Below are positions 27,731 through 52,123 of a DNA stretch of 64,000 nucleotides, one piece after another. The translations under genes and the position numbers were made by a program. The notes under the pieces are model-generated. The model did no database searches. It was not told the DNA's origin and saw only the letters and a program-made list of their open reading frames with translations. Source of the stretch: Flavobacteriales bacterium (GTDB taxonomy: Bacteria; Bacteroidota; Bacteroidia; CAIKAF01); the NCBI GenBank assembly GCA_025055635.1, contig JANWWQ010000003.1:1-64000 (forward strand). Direction: 5' to 3'. How positions within the stretch are numbered: position 1 is the stretch's first letter; every line of letters starts with the position of its first letter.

Positions 27731-29032
27731 TTATATGTAAGAAGCAGCTAGCGTGAGCATTTTATTAGTTAGGTTTTTTCGCGAATAACTCTGAATATTT
27801 ATTGGGTTGGTACGGAATGCCTCATAGTTTTTTAGTATCCAGTTTTGATAGTAATAATGCAATTGCTCATAAGCGTTTTGATCTTTCTCAATTAATAATC
27901 CGCACTGGTTTTCTCGTATCAGTTTTTCAATAGTGCCGTAGTCGTTTCTAAACACTATCACCGGTCTTTGCACTGCCATGTAATCATATATTTTAACTGC
28001 GGATCCATCCACAGAATCAGAGGCTAGGAATAACAATAAATGGGCTTTTTGAATAAGACGAACGGATTGATGTCTGGGAAGTCTGGGAGTTATCCGAAGT
28101 TCGCAATTCAATGAATAAAATGCCCTGTTAATTCGATTCTTTTGATGCAGGCTACCCACAAATACAAAGCGTATATCTTTTTCTTTTATGGAATATTTTT
28201 TAGTAAATTGAATAAAAAATGAAACAAATTCTTCCAGGGGTTGAAAGGGATAAAGGGTACCTGAATACATTATGGTAAATTTATCCTTAAAAGGCAGAGC
28301 TCTCGGAGAGAGTTTTTCTATATCTTCAGGTTCATAACCATTTGGGATGACATGAACGGGTCGGTTGAGAAGTTCACCCAGTTGATATGATAATTTTTCC
28401 GTGACCGTCGTGACAGCTGCGGAGGTTTTTACGAGCCGGATCTCAAGAGGCCTGAGAAGGTATTTTAAGATAATTTTTTGAAGAAAAGGCATGTACTTAA
28501 AACCATAGTTTAGGCTCCAGCCATCGCGATAATCTGCAATCCAGGGAATATTAAATTCTTTGCTTAATTTATAGGCGTACAAAAAAGAAATAAATGGCTC
28601 GCCGGTAGCAATTATTAGGGAATATGATCCTAGATTTTTTTTTAAAAATTCTTTGGCTTTTAAGTAAATAGTTCGGGTGCTATCGGTACAAGAAAAGAAG
28701 AAAGGAGCCCAGTAGTAAAAGCTTGTAAGGAATTTTTGCAGGTATACCCAGAAGCTTTTATTGGTTCTTTTCAATATAAGCTTATCTCTTAAGTTGGGCT
28801 TGAAGTCGCAATAGAAAACTTTGGCGGTTCCGTAATGGGAAAATTCCGGAGCGTCGGGAGGATTTTCATAATAATCGGCAAGACACCGGACCTGGGCTTT
28901 CCATTTCCTCGTAAAAACGATTATTTCAAACTGATCTGGATCGGCGTGGCGGCACCAGGATGCAGGTCTTTCGGCTCCTACAGAGTTGTAGGGAGGAAAA
29001 TCGTTGCAAATGATTAGTATTCTTTTTTTCAC
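27731..29032 (-). CDS. GT4-type glycosyltransferase
   Basis: A 433-residue GT-B glycosyltransferase. The N-terminus RILIICNDFPPYNSVGAERP is typical of family 4 enzymes. The mid part has IADYRDGW and the second domain has FTIMYSGTLYPFQP. A weak acceptor/donor block GSAVKIYDYMAVQRPVIVF includes the usual E/K-type position. Substrate cannot be deduced. The GTG start overlaps the stop of the upstream fusion gene by 4 bases (GTGA), so it is the last gene of a three-gene polysaccharide operon. Base composition is noticeably AT-rich. It converges on the PKD protein gene with 12 bases between stops. Confidence 0.87.
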   Translation of the reverse strand: MKKRILIICNDFPPYNSVGAERPASWCRHADPDQFEIIVFTRKWKAQVRCLADYYENPPDAPEFSHYGTAKVFYCDFKPNLRDKLILKRTNKSFWVYLQKFLTSFYYWAPFFFSCTDSTRTIYLKAKEFLKKNLGSYSLIIATGEPFISFLYAYKLSKEFNIPWIADYRDGWSLNYGFKYMPFLQKIILKYLLRPLEIRLVKTSAAVTTVTEKLSYQLGELLNRPVHVIPNGYEPEDIEKLSPRALPFKDKFTIMYSGTLYPFQPLEEFVSFFIQFTKKYSIKEKDIRFVFVGSLHQKNRINRAFYSLNCELRITPRLPRHQSVRLIQKAHLLLFLASDSVDGSAVKIYDYMAVQRPVIVFRNDYGTIEKLIRENQCGLLIEKDQNAYEQLHYYYQNWILKNYEAFRTNPINIQSYSRKNLTNKMLTLAASYI

Positions 29033-31470
29033 AACAATTTATCAACTGCTTCGCGAAATCTGGCTAAAAACTTGGTATGGGAAGGATAATATGTATGCGG
29101 TACTGGGGGGGATTGCATGATTTGATACCATTCGGTTTCGCTAAGGTTAAATTTCTGGCGAAGGAATTTCAACAAATTTTCCTTTTCTTCTTCACTGATC
29201 GCAGGTTTTTTCAATTCTTTTAGGGCTTCCTCGCGGTCCATCTGGCCTGCGCATATAAGGGTTGAAAAGTGGGAAATTCTTTTATCAATTCCGAATTTGT
29301 CCGGAAGTATACATGTTTGAAATATTTTTGTAAAAGTACTTTCGTGGTGTTTACCTCCATAGTCCCGCCATCCACATTCTTTTTTCAGTAATTCTTTTGC
29401 AGCCTTTTTATCGTAATGAACATATTCTAGCAAGGGAATGTACCGTATACCCCAAATTTTTTCGTAGGCCAATTTTTTTAGAATTCCAAGAGTAGGAAAA
29501 GTTTTAATTTTTCTTTTACCGAATCTTTTGTGGATAGCTTTGAGGTTCACCAAATCGATTTTAGAAAATACCCATTCGGGAGGCAATACGCCTTCTGTAG
29601 TAAAATTTTCTCCGGATAGAATGTATTTGATTCCAAATTTCTTCGCGGCCCGGTATAGAGTAGCAATGATAGCATGGTCAGTGAGAACTTCGATGTCCAC
29701 AACGGATGCTTTCAGGTATGCCATTTGCAAATCCTTAAACTCGTCCCATTCTATTACGTGTGTGTATAAATCCACATTTAAATGTTCAAGTACATTTCTT
29801 ATATTTTGAACGGCAATTTCGCTGTTCCATCCATTATCTAGGTGTACCGCCAATGGATTTAATCCTAAAATCTTTTTAGCATAATAAACCGTGTAACTAC
29901 TGTCAATGCCTCCGCTGACGCCCACGATACAATTATATTTACCTTTGTGTTTTTTGATTTTTTGAATTATTTCTTCTAATTCCCCTGAACCTATCTTACT
30001 TTTTATTTGATTTATCCGCAGGTCGTATGTCCGGCAAAATTGACAAAGACCGTCAAGTCCCAAATCTAATCTCGGATAATTGCGCGTGTTGAATACACAT
30101 CTTGCACACTCCTTATAGCTATTCTCATTTTTTATTTCAGTTTTTGTTTTCAATAGTTTAAGTAAATCATGGGCAAAAATTTCATAGTTTTTCTCTGCAG
30201 AGAACTTATCTTTCCAGGTAGAGTAAGCGTTTTGTCGCATTTTTTTCTTGTCTTCGGATGGCCACAAATGATAGGCTTTTAAAGCTTTTGCAATGTCTTC
30301 CGGTGTGCTTTTGGATGGACACAGAAAGCCATTCACATTATTTTGGATAATTTCTCTAATTCCTCCCACATCTCTCCCTACACAGGGAATTCCAGCTGAC
30401 ATAGCTTCCATCATGGACACGGGGAGCCCCTCATAATCGCTAGTATTGAGTAAAAGGTCAAAGTATTCATTTGTTAAGATTTCCTTGACTTGATGTTTGT
30501 TTTTTAATCCTCTGTAATCATAAGAAAACCAGGAATACTTTTTTCTAAGATTTTCCAGGGAAGCCAGAAAATCTTGTTCATACTTTGGATTGCCGCTGCC
30601 AATATGTGTCCATGTGATGGCTATATTTTCCTTAAGCAAAATTTCCACGGACTTTGCAGCCAGATCTAAACGTTTTACTGGAGAAATAAAAGCCAGGGTG
30701 AGTATCAGTAATGGTTGATTATCTGGTGCTTCAGGCGGTTCATAATGGTCGCAAATTTCCGGGGTGCCCAGGGGACGACAATACACATTTATGGGTAATG
30801 CAGTGCTGTACTTCTGTTGAATATAATTTTTGCCATGTTCAGAAATGGTAAAAAAGGCATCCACTTTTTTTAGTATGAGGGTTCTGAAAGGCAGATACGA
30901 GTAAGGATTCCGCTCGCAATACACATCCCAGCCATGGGCTCTAGTCGTTACGGCAGAGTTTTTGAAATAGGTGCTTAGCAGTATGTTGCCTAACGTAAAT
31001 TCAGTGGTCCAATATGAATAAAATAAAAATTTATCGTTGTCTGTTTTTATCCTTTGGATGTAATTTTTGAGGGTTTCAAAGTATTTGTGAGCTTTCTTAA
31101 CCCAAGCTAAGACTACCTTTATTTTATAAAAATTAGGTAAAGACCTGTTCCTGATAAAAATCTGGTAAAACTCATAAAAAATCCACCATTTGTAACGGAC
31201 AACCGAACTGAGTGCAATTTTTTCGCTTCTGGTCAAATTAAAATTAAAATTTTGTAAAATACAGTTTTCAGGAAATTGAAAGATAATATCATTATGATTA
31301 GGATAATTTTTCTCAGAGTATTGTGTGATAATGATATGGACCTGGTCGAAATGTTTGCAAAGAAAGGGCAGCTCACTTTCCAGAAAGGGCTCTCCGAAAC
31401 CATATGGAAAGTCTGATACGGTAAGGAACAAAATTTTTCTTTCCGTTTCGTGTTGATTTTCAGGGGGCAT
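29029..31470 (-). CDS. Fusion: glycosyltransferase + WbpG-type N-acetyl sugar amidotransferase
   Basis: An 813-residue protein with two enzymes in one frame. Residues about 11-440 form a GT-B glycosyltransferase (LILTLAFISPVKRLDLA, then SDYEGLPVSMMEAMSAG). Residues about 452-813 form an N-acetyl sugar amidotransferase of the WbpG/PseA/LegX group. That part has two CxxC pairs (C455/C458, C476/C479), a PP-loop SGGIDSS (519-525), and the family C-terminal part with GGKHHESTFTKIFQ. WbpG-type enzymes convert an N-acetyl sugar acid or sugar to an amidine/amide, with ammonia from HisH/HisF-like partners, which are not in the window. The junction has no ATG, although an in-frame TTG at 30151-30153 could start a separate amidotransferase. 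It overlaps the PaaK-like gene by 11 bases. Confidence 0.85.
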   Translation of the reverse strand: MPPENQHETERKILFLTVSDFPYGFGEPFLESELPFLCKHFDQVHIIITQYSEKNYPNHNDIIFQFPENCILQNFNFNLTRSEKIALSSVVRYKWWIFYEFYQIFIRNRSLPNFYKIKVVLAWVKKAHKYFETLKNYIQRIKTDNDKFLFYSYWTTEFTLGNILLSTYFKNSAVTTRAHGWDVYCERNPYSYLPFRTLILKKVDAFFTISEHGKNYIQQKYSTALPINVYCRPLGTPEICDHYEPPEAPDNQPLLILTLAFISPVKRLDLAAKSVEILLKENIAITWTHIGSGNPKYEQDFLASLENLRKKYSWFSYDYRGLKNKHQVKEILTNEYFDLLLNTSDYEGLPVSMMEAMSAGIPCVGRDVGGIREIIQNNVNGFLCPSKSTPEDIAKALKAYHLWPSEDKKKMRQNAYSTWKDKFSAEKNYEIFAHDLLKLLKTKTEIKNENSYKECARCVFNTRNYPRLDLGLDGLCQFCRTYDLRINQIKSKIGSGELEEIIQKIKKHKGKYNCIVGVSGGIDSSYTVYYAKKILGLNPLAVHLDNGWNSEIAVQNIRNVLEHLNVDLYTHVIEWDEFKDLQMAYLKASVVDIEVLTDHAIIATLYRAAKKFGIKYILSGENFTTEGVLPPEWVFSKIDLVNLKAIHKRFGKRKIKTFPTLGILKKLAYEKIWGIRYIPLLEYVHYDKKAAKELLKKECGWRDYGGKHHESTFTKIFQTCILPDKFGIDKRISHFSTLICAGQMDREEALKELKKPAISEEEKENLLKFLRQKFNLSETEWYQIMQSPPVPHTYYPSHTKFLARFREAVDKLL

Positions 31471-32773
31471 TTTGCATGGAATTTCTTAAATCTAAAATTA
31501 CTTGAGGTTTTCTTTTTGACTCGGGAAATAGTTTTTTGACTAGTAAATCATCTGGAATCCAATGGATTTCTGGAACAGGCAAATTGTGATCTCTGAATGT
31601 GCGGAGGAAAAAGTCATATGTCACACGCATTTGAGCTTTTTCAGAGATGAAAAGCATTAGTTTATCGTGCTGTTCCTTTTCATGAGCTATGGTCAGTTGA
31701 AATTGCTGACTGAGGCCACAGTCATTCAAAAGCCGAACATATTGTTCCGGGTAGATAGTAGTGCCATTGACTTTTAGCCGTAATTCCCGGCGTCCAACGA
31801 CGGGACCGATGCGCAGGGATGTGAGGCCACAGGGACAAGGGGAGCGCCACACGCGCACTATATCACCTGTGGCATACCGCAGCATTGGCATTGCCTCCAC
31901 CCCAAAATGTGTAAAAACTAATTGTCCCGCTTGGCCTTCCTCAACAGGGCGTCCTTCGTCATCAAGGATTTCCGTGTACACCAGGTCGTCCTGAGCATGC
32001 AGACCGGTGTGCTGGGGGCATTCTGTGTAGGCTGTTTGGAGTTCGGTGGAAGCATAAGTGGACACGATGTTAAGCGGCCATTGCTGAGTGATAGATTGAC
32101 AAAGCGCATTGGGCCTGCAGTTCTCATCGATAGTGGGTTCACCTACTGCTATGAGGGTGCGTACGGATAAGCTCTGTGGATCAATGCCCTGAGATTGGGC
32201 ATATTCCAGCAAACGGGGGATAAAGGAAGGCACGGCCAGGAGGGCTGTGACCTGACGTTGATGCATAGTTTGCCATTGCAGGGGTAGCACGCCGGGACCC
32301 ATTCGTATCACGGATATGCCCGCTTTTCTGGCTCCTAACCAATAAGCCAGGCCCGCCATAAATCGTTTGTCCAAGGTGATGCAAATTTGCAGGACGTCGC
32401 CCCGGCGCAGGCCCGCCATGCGGAATGTCCATGCTTCATTTCGGGCTAATCGGCGTAAATCCCCTTCGCTGAGCGGAACATAAAGAGGCTCACCTGTGGT
32501 TCCTGAAGTGCTGGACCACTCCTTAATGCGGTGTGAAGAAATACAAAAAAAATCTTCTGGATGCCGGATAAGATGACTTTTGGTGGTTAAAGGAAGCGCC
32601 CGGAATATTTCCCACGTCCATTTCTCAAGGGGTTTACGGGAATGCCTGGCAAGTAACTTTTTATAGTAAGGAGAATATTTTGAAAGGTAGGATAATGTAT
32701 TTAATAGCTTAGGTGGTAGGTTAAAGTTATCTTGAGGTTTGGAGTTTGGAGATGGCCTAGCCTTTTTGGGCAT
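31460..32773 (-). CDS. PaaK/CapK-like phenylacetate-CoA ligase family protein
   Basis: A 437-residue adenylate-forming enzyme. The phosphate-binding loop is SSTSGTTGEPLYVP. Later motifs include YASTELQTAY, LVFTHFG and LRYATGDIVRV, plus GRRELRLKVNG near the hinge. Members found in capsule and O-antigen clusters (CapK type) may activate or transfer acyl groups to sugars, but their reaction is poorly defined. A Cys-rich stretch (SPCPCGL) before the hinge resembles the same region in PaaK-like proteins. ATG at 32773 is the first gene of the leftward operon, 16 bases past a TAAATTTG promoter box. Its end overlaps the fusion gene by 11 bases. Confidence 0.87.
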   Translation of the reverse strand: MPKKARPSPNSKPQDNFNLPPKLLNTLSYLSKYSPYYKKLLARHSRKPLEKWTWEIFRALPLTTKSHLIRHPEDFFCISSHRIKEWSSTSGTTGEPLYVPLSEGDLRRLARNEAWTFRMAGLRRGDVLQICITLDKRFMAGLAYWLGARKAGISVIRMGPGVLPLQWQTMHQRQVTALLAVPSFIPRLLEYAQSQGIDPQSLSVRTLIAVGEPTIDENCRPNALCQSITQQWPLNIVSTYASTELQTAYTECPQHTGLHAQDDLVYTEILDDEGRPVEEGQAGQLVFTHFGVEAMPMLRYATGDIVRVWRSPCPCGLTSLRIGPVVGRRELRLKVNGTTIYPEQYVRLLNDCGLSQQFQLTIAHEKEQHDKLMLFISEKAQMRVTYDFFLRTFRDHNLPVPEIHWIPDDLLVKKLFPESKRKPQVILDLRNSMQNAP

Positions 32774-48881: not shown

Positions 48882-49828
48882 GGCAATTGCTTGTTTTGGA
48901 AGAGAGAAAATAGTATACCTTCTTTCAGTGCGAAGGAGCAAGTTCGGACTGAGGTAATGGGGAATTTTTCCATCAAGAGGAGCACCAGTTGGGCGGCAGC
49001 CGGCAGCATTTCGGCGCGAAAGGCGGTGATGCCCGGCATGCGCAGCCTTTCCTCTAGGGTGGCGTCCAAAAGATCTTCGCAAAGTACCCTACAGGCATCC
49101 GCTGTGTAGGAAGTCCAGAATTTTTCGCGGCGAATTATCTGCCCTCTGGCACTCAGCATATCTTCAAATGTATCAAATGTGCCCGAAGAGCCTACCAGCG
49201 TGGTGACCGGATACGGACGGGCTAGATGAAAAAGGGGCAGCAAAATCTCTTCCAAATAAGCACGCATTTTAGAGAGTTGTTCGGGACGTGGCTGGTCATG
49301 GGTTCCGAAATCATCGGTGAGGCGGCTGACTCCCATTTCAAAGCTCTCCGAATAGACGGGAGCTTTGTGGTAATAGATTGCAAATTCGCAGCTTCCGCCA
49401 CCCACATCCACAATGAGAGCGTTGTCTAAATCGTGGAGGACCCCGCTCATAAGCACACCCCGAAAAATAAGTTCGGCCTCCCTTCGGCCGGAGAGAAGAT
49501 GAAGGGGATGGCCCAAAATGCGTTGACAGGCTTCCTGAACCAAGTGACCATTTCGGGCATTGCGCACGGCAGAAGTACCTGAAACAAATACCCTGCCAGG
49601 AGCAAATTCAGAGAGTTTTGCCGCGTACTCAGTAAAGGCCGCTTCGGCTCTCTGCAAGGCTTCGGGTAGCAGTTCACGCCCGCGCAGACCGCCCTTCCCT
49701 AATTTTACAGGAATTTTGCCCTGATAGAGCACTTTGAAGAAATGCCCTTCGGGCTCAGCAATGAGAAGATTAAAAGTATTGGTGCCACAATCCAGCACTG
49801 CCACTCGGGTATGAGACTGTGAACTCAT
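48878..49828 (-). CDS. Ppx/GppA-family phosphatase
   Basis: A 316-residue ASKHA-fold protein. It shows VAVLDCGTNTFNLLIAE (phosphate 1), GTSAVRNARN, IVDVGGGSCEF (phosphate 2), MGVSRLTDDFG and GSSGTFDTFEDM. Family members hydrolyse inorganic polyphosphate or pppGpp. The short length (about 310 residues, no C-terminal HD-like domain) is common in Bacteroidota and leaves the substrate open. The start ATG overlaps the O-antigen ligase stop, and the response regulator start overlaps its own stop, so all three are translated in a coupled chain. Confidence 0.92.
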   Translation of the reverse strand: MSSQSHTRVAVLDCGTNTFNLLIAEPEGHFFKVLYQGKIPVKLGKGGLRGRELLPEALQRAEAAFTEYAAKLSEFAPGRVFVSGTSAVRNARNGHLVQEACQRILGHPLHLLSGRREAELIFRGVLMSGVLHDLDNALIVDVGGGSCEFAIYYHKAPVYSESFEMGVSRLTDDFGTHDQPRPEQLSKMRAYLEEILLPLFHLARPYPVTTLVGSSGTFDTFEDMLSARGQIIRREKFWTSYTADACRVLCEDLLDATLEERLRMPGITAFRAEMLPAAAQLVLLLMEKFPITSVRTCSFALKEGILFSLFQNKQLP

Positions 49829-50943
49829 TTCTGACCCTCAAACTTAAAATAGGGAAGCCAAGCTGAAAAAAGACCTAGCATGATGGTCCCCCATTGACGT
49901 TCGGCCACATTTTCCGTGAGACAAAAAAGGAATAGAGCTAAGGCGTTGGCAGAGGCCAACCAGCTGCTTATAGAACGCAACATCCGGAGCACCGCTCCCC
50001 AAAAGCCTAGGAATAGAAGCAATCCAGTGAAGCCATGAGCTGCAGCAAGGTGGAGAAACTGATTATGGGTGTTCATGTTCTGCAGCCGAGGGTCTCGGCC
50101 TAAGTAGCAGGTGTTAAGATCCTCTTGCAACAAAGGTCCCACGCCGGTCCAAGGTTTGGACTGGAAAACCTGCCAACCGCATTGCCAGGATACTGCTCGT
50201 AAAGTGGCAGAGTTTTTTTGGTTTTGCACAATTTCCATAAATCTTGTGGAGGGCACTAGAACTATGTAAAGAGTTAAGATACTTAACAGCATCATACCTG
50301 CCCACCGGTATTTAGGCTGAAGTAGAAAAAAGGCAATTAATGCCATAAGGTGAATGCGGGTTTCCAGAAAAACCAGTGAAATCAACAAAAACGAAGCTAA
50401 ACCTGTCCACAAAGCCTTTACCCAGAAGGTCGCTTCAGTGTAGGCTCTATTTATAAAAAAGACGATGGAAGCCAGGGCAAACATCCCGAAGTATGGAGGA
50501 TGGATGCCCGTACGAATTGAAAATTCGTTTCTTAGTTTATAAGAGAGGGTGTGTGCCGCAAGATAACTATCCTGAAAGCCTGTGCTAAAAATAGCCACAG
50601 AAGCAAAAACAACGACAGCTGATGTTGAGAGGGCTAGTACCAGGTATTCACGCTCCACAAAGTTGGCCAGAAGAGGACGTTCATCAGGAGAGGAGAGAGA
50701 ATGTATAAGTGGTAATGTCAACCAGAAGAAGTAATGGTCAGGAAATGCGGCTTGATAAAAGCCATGTCTTAAGGAGGAAAGACAGCCCAGTATGCAGGTG
50801 GCGCCAATTATCCAAAATAGAAGAAGAGGCCTAAAGTAACACCGCCTTTGAAAAATCAATAAGAGGCAGCCTATGGCTGAGAGGACCAGAGCTGCGCTGT
50901 GCACAAAATACCAAGGCCAGGGGGCGGTGGCAGTCAGACACAT
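49825..50943 (-). CDS. O-antigen ligase / polymerase family membrane protein
   Basis: A 372-residue protein from ATG at 50943. TTG at 50967 is an equally possible start. It has about ten hydrophobic segments. The large periplasmic loop typical of the Wzy_C/O-antigen ligase domain contains GVGPLLQEDLNTCYL and THNQFLHLAAAHGFTGLLL. It probably polymerises or ligates lipid-linked glycans at the periplasmic face of the inner membrane. The upstream glycosyltransferase ends at 50987, close to this start, and the downstream Ppx start overlaps its stop. Confidence 0.87.
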   Translation of the reverse strand: MCLTATAPWPWYFVHSAALVLSAIGCLLLIFQRRCYFRPLLLFWIIGATCILGCLSSLRHGFYQAAFPDHYFFWLTLPLIHSLSSPDERPLLANFVEREYLVLALSTSAVVVFASVAIFSTGFQDSYLAAHTLSYKLRNEFSIRTGIHPPYFGMFALASIVFFINRAYTEATFWVKALWTGLASFLLISLVFLETRIHLMALIAFFLLQPKYRWAGMMLLSILTLYIVLVPSTRFMEIVQNQKNSATLRAVSWQCGWQVFQSKPWTGVGPLLQEDLNTCYLGRDPRLQNMNTHNQFLHLAAAHGFTGLLLFLGFWGAVLRMLRSISSWLASANALALFLFCLTENVAERQWGTIMLGLFSAWLPYFKFEGQK

Positions 50944-50986
50944 CAGGCCGGCTTTCGTCAGAAACAAACCGCCTGGGCCGCCATTC

Positions 50987-52123
50987 TCAGAGTGCCGCAG
51001 CCAGAGGCTCCGGAAAATGTTGGCAGAAAAAATTTCTGATTTCTTTTTCAAAGCGCTGGCGTGAAAATTTAAGAACCGAAGCCCGAATTTCTGAAGCATC
51101 CCAGGATGTGATACCTTCAAAGCGTTCCACTGCTTCCATAAGACTTTTTACCGTCTGGCGATGAAAGAAAATGCCATTTTTTCCTTCTTGGACAGTTTCT
51201 AGGGCTCCGCCGGCAGCCAGGGCAATCACTGGTACTCCGCATGCCATGGCTTCCACCGGGGCTATACCAAAATCGTCCAGAGCCGCAAACACATAGGCTT
51301 TGGCACCATGCAGCCATTGCCTGTATTCTTCCCTAGAGCCCATGGGCACCACTCTGATGTGAGGAGCTGCTTGCTTTTGGAGCTTTGGAATAGCCGCCGG
51401 TCGAGTGGCCATCACTAGGGGGCGAGAGGGCATTTGGTTGAATGTCCAAAGAATTAAGTCAAGTTTTTTATAGGGTACATCCCTGGATGAGGTGAAGTAA
51501 TAACCGTCCTGGTAATTTTTATTACTCGGTAGCTGGAAAAAATCCGTGTCTACAGGTGGATAAATCACGGTGGCTTCTTTTTTATAAAATTCTTTAATCC
51601 GTCCGGCCACATAGTGCGAGTTGGCAATAAAATAATCCACCGTGTGGCTGCCCTGCAGGTCCCATTTACGCAGACGAGTTAGAGTTCTTGAAATGACCTT
51701 GAGAAAAAGTGGACGGTACAAACCGTAGTCTTGTAAATATTCTTTTTCAAATGCCCATAGATAACGTGAAGGTGTATGACAATAACAAATATGTAAAGCA
51801 CCTTTCTTTTTTCTGATATTTTTTGCAGCAGCATGGCTACTGCTGACCACAACATCGTAACGATGGAGGGGAAGCTGAGCCATGGCTAAGGGAAAAACAG
51901 GAAGCCATATCTTGTAAAAGTGGGCTGCAAAAGGCAGGCGGGCCATCCAGGAAGTATGCAGTTGTGGACTGGGAGAATTCAGTACCTGGGCAGCCATGCT
52001 ACGGGATCCAAGCATGGCATAAATGTGTGGTTTCAAGGGTCGCAGCACCCTGTAAATTTCTCCGGCTACTTCCTCAGAACCTCCTTTCTGAAGATACCAA
52101 TCGTGGACGAAAGCAACCTTCAC
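50987..52123 (-). CDS. GT4-type glycosyltransferase
   Basis: A 378-residue GT-B enzyme. It opens KVAFVHDWYLQKGGSE, followed by VVVSSSHAAAKNIRKKKG and CYCHTPSRYLWAFE. These are typical of family 4 mannosyltransferase-like enzymes, although the sugar specificity is not proven. The nucleotide-sugar block is ALDDFGIAPVEAMACGVPVIA, with the EX7E-type glutamates. It starts at GTG (52123), 10 bases after the Rieske-like gene, and runs into the O-antigen ligase gene. Its product probably helps build the glycan that the ligase handles. Confidence 0.9.
   Translation of the reverse strand: MKVAFVHDWYLQKGGSEEVAGEIYRVLRPLKPHIYAMLGSRSMAAQVLNSPSPQLHTSWMARLPFAAHFYKIWLPVFPLAMAQLPLHRYDVVVSSSHAAAKNIRKKKGALHICYCHTPSRYLWAFEKEYLQDYGLYRPLFLKVISRTLTRLRKWDLQGSHTVDYFIANSHYVAGRIKEFYKKEATVIYPPVDTDFFQLPSNKNYQDGYYFTSSRDVPYKKLDLILWTFNQMPSRPLVMATRPAAIPKLQKQAAPHIRVVPMGSREEYRQWLHGAKAYVFAALDDFGIAPVEAMACGVPVIALAAGGALETVQEGKNGIFFHRQTVKSLMEAVERFEGITSWDASEIRASVLKFSRQRFEKEIRNFFCQHFPEPLAAAL

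Follow-up and report, generated by a model that had tools for sequence, protein, structure and literature searches.

A one-frame fusion of a glycosyltransferase and an N-acetyl sugar amidotransferase from a Flavobacteriales bacterium: a candidate enzyme for sugar acetamidines

The first 64,000 nucleotides of contig JANWWQ010000003.1 from a Flavobacteriales bacterium (assembly GCA_025055635.1), hereafter the window, encode a protein in which a family 4 glycosyltransferase (GT4) is followed, within a single open reading frame (ORF), by an N-acetyl sugar amidotransferase (NASAT) of the WbuX/WbpG type. Here we describe this glycosyltransferase (GT)::NASAT fusion, its relatives and its probable ammonia suppliers, and we discuss what the joining of the two enzymes may mean for the assembly of surface glycans. 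Features are collected in Table 1; throughout, P denotes proteins from the database search, G genomes, L fetched genome loci and C contigs of the genome to which the window belongs.

The fused gene and its two halves

Both halves of the fusion are complete and their signature motifs are intact. The original prediction, made from the sequence of the window, had placed two whole enzymes in one frame, a GT-B glycosyltransferase and a WbpG-type amidotransferase, and the Pfam, NCBIfam and motif scans agree with it. In the first half Glycos_transf_1 exceeds its gathering score at residues 247–417, in keeping with a GT-B fold, and the E-x7-E motif, which we take to be catalytic, is kept at all 19 fused genome loci, with E347 and E355 invariant in all 11 aligned fusions. 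In the second half TIGR03573 (WbuX) scores 277 bits over residues 453–786 against a curated cut-off of 203.2, and the CxxC pairs and PP-loop that had been predicted are both in place. The cysteines, arranged as C455-x2-C458 and G474-x-C476-x2-C479, fit the pattern CxxC-Xn-[GN]xCxxC and are invariant in the 11 aligned fusions; with 10–45 residues between the pairs the tetracysteine pattern occurs in 67 of the 94 NASAT ORFs scanned, and SGGxDS in all 94. A predicted model of the whole protein (predicted local distance difference test 84, predicted template modelling score 0.79) yields halves that match solved GT4 and NASAT structures, the second having the fold of LpNASAT.

Each half belongs to a known family, and the novelty lies in their joined architecture. 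With the WbuX/WbpG amidotransferases (TIGR03573; LpNASAT, PDB 8wex) the fusion shares the PP-loop, the tetracysteine, the fold and the presence of HisH/HisF2-like genes in the genome; whereas the WbpG type normally stands alone, here the NASAT forms the C-terminal half of an 813-residue protein behind a GT4. Likewise, the GT half has the GT-B fold and E-x7-E motif of GT4 enzymes such as BshA, PglA and WaaG, but unlike them carries a C-terminal amidotransferase. In the available part of PMC13329287, WbpG-type proteins are reported as 300–400 residues long, and subcluster 1 of QueC cluster 5 is described as multi-domain proteins of 900–2603 residues, clustered with WbpG and mostly from Flavobacteria; these have the SGGxDS signature in common with the fusion, whose length falls outside their range in a comparison for which that part of the source leaves their other domains unnamed. 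In those parts of the open-access literature that were available we met no description of GT::NASAT fusions.

Table 1. Features of the fusion gene, its neighbours and related fusions
Feature	Position	Strand	Remarks
Whole fusion gene, GT4 + NASAT	29029-31470	-	813 residues, ATG start, no internal stop
GT4 (GT-B) glycosyltransferase half, residues 11-440	30151-31440	-	Pfam Glycos_transf_1
E-x7-E motif of GT half, E347/E355	30406-30432	-	motif scan and alignment
Short linker, residues 441-452	30115-30150	-	start codons near junction variable among relatives
NASAT half (WbuX/WbpG type), residues 453-786	29113-30114	-	
Tetracysteine (zinc-site) motif, residues 455-479	30034-30108	-	motif scan and alignment
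PP-loop SGGIDS, ATP pyrophosphatase signature, residues 519-524	29899-29916	-	motif scan
Second GT4-type glycosyltransferase gene	27731-29032	-	PF00534, 41 bits; start overlaps stop of fusion
Acyl-CoA-ligase-like gene, FlxY/PaaK-like	31460-32773	-	434 bits, below 520-bit FlxY cut-off; overlaps start of fusion
GT::HisH fusion (658 residues), window's family	L035:10628-12604	-	
GT::HisH fusion (658 residues), window's family	L037:8279-10255	+	
GT::HisH::GT (about 1070 residues), window's family	L036:11686-14895	-	
GT::HisH::GT (about 1070 residues)	L141:6033-9245	+	
HisF2::GT4 protein, 645 residues	L133:9752-11689	+	one locus only
NASAT then two GT4 domains, 1182 residues	L087:1518-5066	+	
NASAT::methyltransferase	L097:13862-15802	+	

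Spread and origin of the fused architecture

The GT::NASAT architecture is rare but real. A protein database search for the same domain order, suggested with the original prediction, lists 18 proteins: the query itself, ten further proteins with the whole architecture (P0002–P0011, 34–54% aligned identity); the remaining seven comprise two tandems of the GT-GT type and five partial matches to the GT. The tandems (P0012 and P0013, 823 residues each) belong to the same GT clade and have no NASAT. Among 100 genomes a full-length, stop-free match occurs in four, namely the genome itself, one of the same genus (G001, also L066; 54–55% identity) and, at 43% identity, two from a different family; in G050 a match leaves its contig in a long frame. 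A collection in which each of 84,980 species is represented by a single genome gave 558 relatives, and the 80 best loci were retained; the relatives are labelled nearly all as Bacteroidota groups (L066 as Flavobacteriales), and 19 of the 80 encode the same fused protein, the copy in L081 being cut by the contig end. L066 is identical to P0002, L078 is 67% identical to P0011, and L069 and L071, whose contigs equal those of G064 and G018 in length, are probably the same places. A true one-frame fusion, as originally predicted, is thereby corroborated by ten database proteins and 19 of the best 80 loci, and the contrary case, that relatives would always encode two separate proteins, does not hold. 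A phylum-wide scan of 395 genomes (E 1e-60) recovered the full fusion in the genome itself only, but may have missed others because scoring was confined to the top two candidates of each genome. The named database fusions P0002 and P0006 are annotated as amidotransferases only, and the architecture is therefore hidden in the annotation.

The original prediction had also offered an in-frame TTG at 30151–30153 as a start from which the second half could be translated separately; two normal proteins would then result. The codon is present and in frame (codon 440), and an ATG four codons before the first NASAT cysteine in L067, L069 and L071 is perhaps a relic of a stand-alone start. The reading of the TTG as a start nonetheless lacks support because the relatives do not share a start codon at the junction: in the same-genus L066 the 30 codons ahead of that cysteine contain neither ATG nor GTG nor TTG, and the same is true of five further fused loci of the 19 (L072, L073, L076, L079 and L095), and separate translation is therefore rejected as very improbable. 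Still less credible, to the point where it can be dismissed, is an assembly or sequencing error that joined two genes: adjoining or overlapping GT and NASAT ORFs in relatives (L030, L126) and junction-crossing matches with one in-frame stop (G039, G061, G099) mean that a small error could join the halves, but the same order recurs in the second genome of the genus and in other, independent assemblies down to 34% identity.

Unfused relatives often have the two genes as neighbours: the GT and NASAT ORFs overlap by 8 bases (L030) or 11 bases (L126) or are separated by 6 (L077), 21 (L085) or 45 bases (L086), although these spacings may be inexact, each ORF having been taken from its first possible start codon. 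L032 has GT, HisH, HisF2 and NASAT, in that order, as four separate consecutive genes. The GT tree places three of the fused branches nearest to unfused GTs that are each followed by a NASAT ORF (L083/L084 with L126, L082 with L077 and L078 with L031), and the fused state requires seven changes on it, at least four of these changes being forced by well-supported branches. With tree rows picked by similarity to the window's protein, the approximately unbiased (AU) test rejected one common clade of the fused proteins in each of three settings: the GT tree with all 20 fused rows set against 16 (p 0.001), the GT tree minus L082–L084 with 17 fused rows (p 3e-32) and the NASAT tree with 20 rows set against 70 (p 4e-74), the last being a quick tree whose test left out the long rows L106_1298, L139_2532 and L120_9239. 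Because a single fused clade is rejected on both trees, the fusion has arisen or broken repeatedly; the trees would suit either recurrent fusion or an ancient fusion that was split more than once, and the AU tests are blind to the difference. On the NASAT tree the window's protein and L066 group with seven stand-alone NASATs (Shimodaira–Hasegawa-like approximate likelihood-ratio support 90, below the starred level), four of which (L096, L101, L108 and L141) sit in operons with GT::HisH fusions.

Probable ammonia partners, neighbouring genes and related fusions

In this enzyme family HisH and HisF2 are taken to feed ammonia to the NASAT, which would make the acetamidine with adenosine triphosphate (ATP). 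The original prediction had noted that no such partners lie in the window, and a genome-wide search, which had been suggested alongside it, indeed found no match to HisH or HisF-type genes on the window's contig (C70). The same search recovered a HisH and a HisF2-like gene on contig C62, adjoining and overlapping by one base, and the implied lack of ammonia partners is thereby ruled out; weaker second matches to the HisH/HisF models reach 22.6 bits on C95 and 26.7 bits on C61. The HisH scores 215.9 bits against the TIGR01855 cut-off of 105.4 and keeps the Cys and His-x-Glu regions (lCLGMQ and fHPErs, aligned to 4gud) that presumably hold the catalytic residues. Its barrel partner passes no HisF-type cut-off and lies nearest to HisF2 rather than to the HisF of the histidine pathway: it scores 274 bits with NF038364 (AglZ/HisF2; cut-off 310), 216 with WbuZ (299.7) and 138 with HisF TIGR00735 (294.55), and because 274 bits falls below the NF038364 cut-off we call it HisF2-like only. 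A gene next to the NASAT in G011 likewise scores 274 bits with NF038364. In the alignment the HisF2-like protein has a leucine at the position of Asp11 of HisF, which we take to be catalytic, where the aligned chain 1gpw, presumably an Asp11 mutant, has an asparagine; an aspartate is kept on the strand that holds Asp130, and the roles that we assign to both residues are those assumed for HisF.

The only NASAT match in the genome is the fusion gene, and the most likely client of the C62 pair would be the fusion. Histidinol dehydrogenase was not found in the genome and was found in 13 of 14 control genomes, which is no proof of absence because the assembly is 94% complete and this was the only histidine-pathway enzyme sought; with a HisH/HisF-like pair and no histidinol dehydrogenase detected, the organism is perhaps a histidine auxotroph. 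A HisF2-like gene is present in all 13 fusion-bearing genomes searched (four of four and nine of nine), above the family cut-off in 10; in the second set of nine, eight exceed it and one scores 298 bits. In each of the four genomes of the first set the best HisF2-type match lies on another contig than the fusion, contigs being pieces from whose placement the real distance between the genes cannot be read. The C62 pair thus resembles the HisH/HisF2 (AglZ, WbuZ) ammonia supply in its adjacency, its loss of the Asp11 position and the missing histidinol dehydrogenase, but differs from the AglZ/WbuZ systems in lying on another contig than the amidotransferase and in a HisF2-like protein below both the NF038364 and the WbuZ cut-offs. 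In the available part of PMC11340318 an insertion table has WbuX, HisF2 and HisH as separate genes.

Amidine machinery is joined in other ways in related genomes, where GT4 domains are found attached to each of NASAT, HisH and HisF2. Within the window's own family a GT::HisH protein stands beside HisF2 and NASAT genes in G011 and G013, and a GT::HisH::GT protein of 1069 residues, a layout shared by L141, occurs in G005; L096, L101 and L108 are repeats of these G011, G013 and G005 places. The 92 NASAT ORFs of the best 80 loci include 24 with an N-terminal extension, six with a C-terminal one and one with both. Four ORFs of about 1180 residues (L089, L091, L098, L103) also have the NASAT first, their likeness to L087 being one of length only; L092 is a GT::NASAT with 216 extra residues, L090, L094, L104 and L107 have other GT4 domains in front of the NASAT, and in L132 the NASAT is preceded by a part without a Pfam match. 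The NASAT::methyltransferase of L097 might relate to N-methylated acetamidine sugars. On archaeal-labelled contigs, two of them Thorarchaeota, L099, L102 and L120 hold HisH-HisF2-NASAT operons with NASATs 49–52% identical to that of the window. At L029:4749-7759 (plus strand), in G061, an asparagine-synthetase-like gene (611 residues) directly precedes GT4 and NASAT genes; an asparagine-synthetase-like protein has been proposed for the acetamidino group of Tannerella in the part of PMC6120980 that is available.

Both neighbours of the fusion overlap it. BLAST relatives of the second GT4-type gene adjoin the fusion in G001 and G064 and lie about 2.4 kb off in G018, where the relative has no Pfam match at E 1e-5; the FlxY/PaaK-like ligase, too, has a relative upstream in L066. 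Further genes of the window are an O-antigen ligase/polymerase-like gene and an additional GT4 (49825–52123). In the genome PF01041 matches nine places, four of them strongly; these include aminotransferases of PseC-like and LegC-like type that score below their cut-offs. A single NeuB-like protein falls short of both the NeuB and the PseI cut-off. Nothing ties these PF01041 and NeuB-like genes to the fusion, and the genome gives no basis for naming the sugar.

A possible coupling of amidination and sugar transfer

We propose that the fusion is a bifunctional enzyme that would amidinate an N-acetyl sugar to the acetamidine and then transfer it to a growing surface glycan, a reading to which domain content and genomic context give an even chance. 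HisH would free ammonia from glutamine and the HisF2-like barrel would hand it to the NASAT half; there the PP-loop half would activate the acetamido oxygen with ATP and the N-acetyl group would be turned into acetamidine, whereupon the GT half would take the amidinated nucleotide sugar as its donor. Amidination would thus precede transfer, an order favoured because acetamidino-pseudaminic acid exists in a form linked to cytidine monophosphate (CMP) in Campylobacter. Coupling of amidation and transfer in one polypeptide is plausible, and because relatives show repeated joining or splitting the two steps would likely be carried out together. As far as the available part of the paper on a solved NASAT goes (PMC10607449), the ATP step is called likely rather than shown, and little is said to be known of NASAT structure and function.

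Alternatively, amidination could follow transfer, the GT adding an N-acetyl sugar to a lipid-linked glycan on which the NASAT would amidinate the residue in place. This order is unlikely, though it has some appeal: of the eight other extended NASATs scanned six are joined to a GT4, one to a methyltransferase and one (L132) to the part without a Pfam match, and none is joined to an enzyme of nucleotide-sugar synthesis. The CMP-linked acetamidino-pseudaminic acid of Campylobacter, by contrast, points to amidination first.

A number of observations weigh against the proposed bifunctional enzyme altogether. The HisF2-like protein falls short of its family cut-off and the HisH/HisF2 pair lies away from the fusion; HisF2 occurs within 8 kb in the fetched stretch at seven of 19 fused loci as against 52 of 75 other NASAT ORFs, a count in which flank lengths differ and the 75 take in other fusion types. 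The full fusion is in the minority, at four of 100 genomes with its own included, and 61 of the 92 NASAT ORFs in the best 80 loci stand alone, the latter count being no population frequency because likeness to the fusion decided which loci were kept. The GT clade is moreover present where the genome shows no NASAT at E 1e-20 (G024, G060 and G083 among others) and for this reason is not confined to amidinated sugars. The joining of domains in polysaccharide clusters may be a matter of co-expression only, and the two halves could accordingly serve one glycan pathway with the GT acting on a different sugar and no coupling between them. That the GT clade occurs without NASAT, that most NASATs are seen unfused and that different GT types are attached to NASAT (in front in L090, L094, L104 and L107, two GT4 domains behind in L087) would all suit such an arrangement, which we nevertheless regard as improbable: the fused proteins form one clade on neither tree, so that joining or splitting has happened more than once, and GT fusions exist for HisH and HisF2 as well, although neither would be expected to have a sugar substrate of its own.

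In those parts of the literature that were available the step at which acetamidino groups join bacterial surface sugars, whether on the free nucleotide sugar or during assembly, is unsettled, and the order of amidination and transfer is not decided in PMC10607449, PMC6120980, PMC11340318 or PMC3958885, nor in PMC13329287, PMC7371886, PMC8319346 or PMC12419801. The GT fusions to all three subunits argue that the amidine complex sits at the glycosyltransferase, whichever step comes first. More tentatively, and with the balance somewhat against it, the separate joining of GT4 to NASAT, HisH and HisF2 may indicate that the sugar acetamidines of Bacteroidota are made in a GT-tethered complex at the site of glycan assembly. 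If so, the amidine would be added at sugar transfer, with ammonia delivered to the glycosyltransferase, rather than in a free nucleotide-sugar pathway. The natural GT::NASAT protein, together with the related operons of GT-fused HisH and HisF2, provides in a single construct the means to test the order and the coupling of the two steps.

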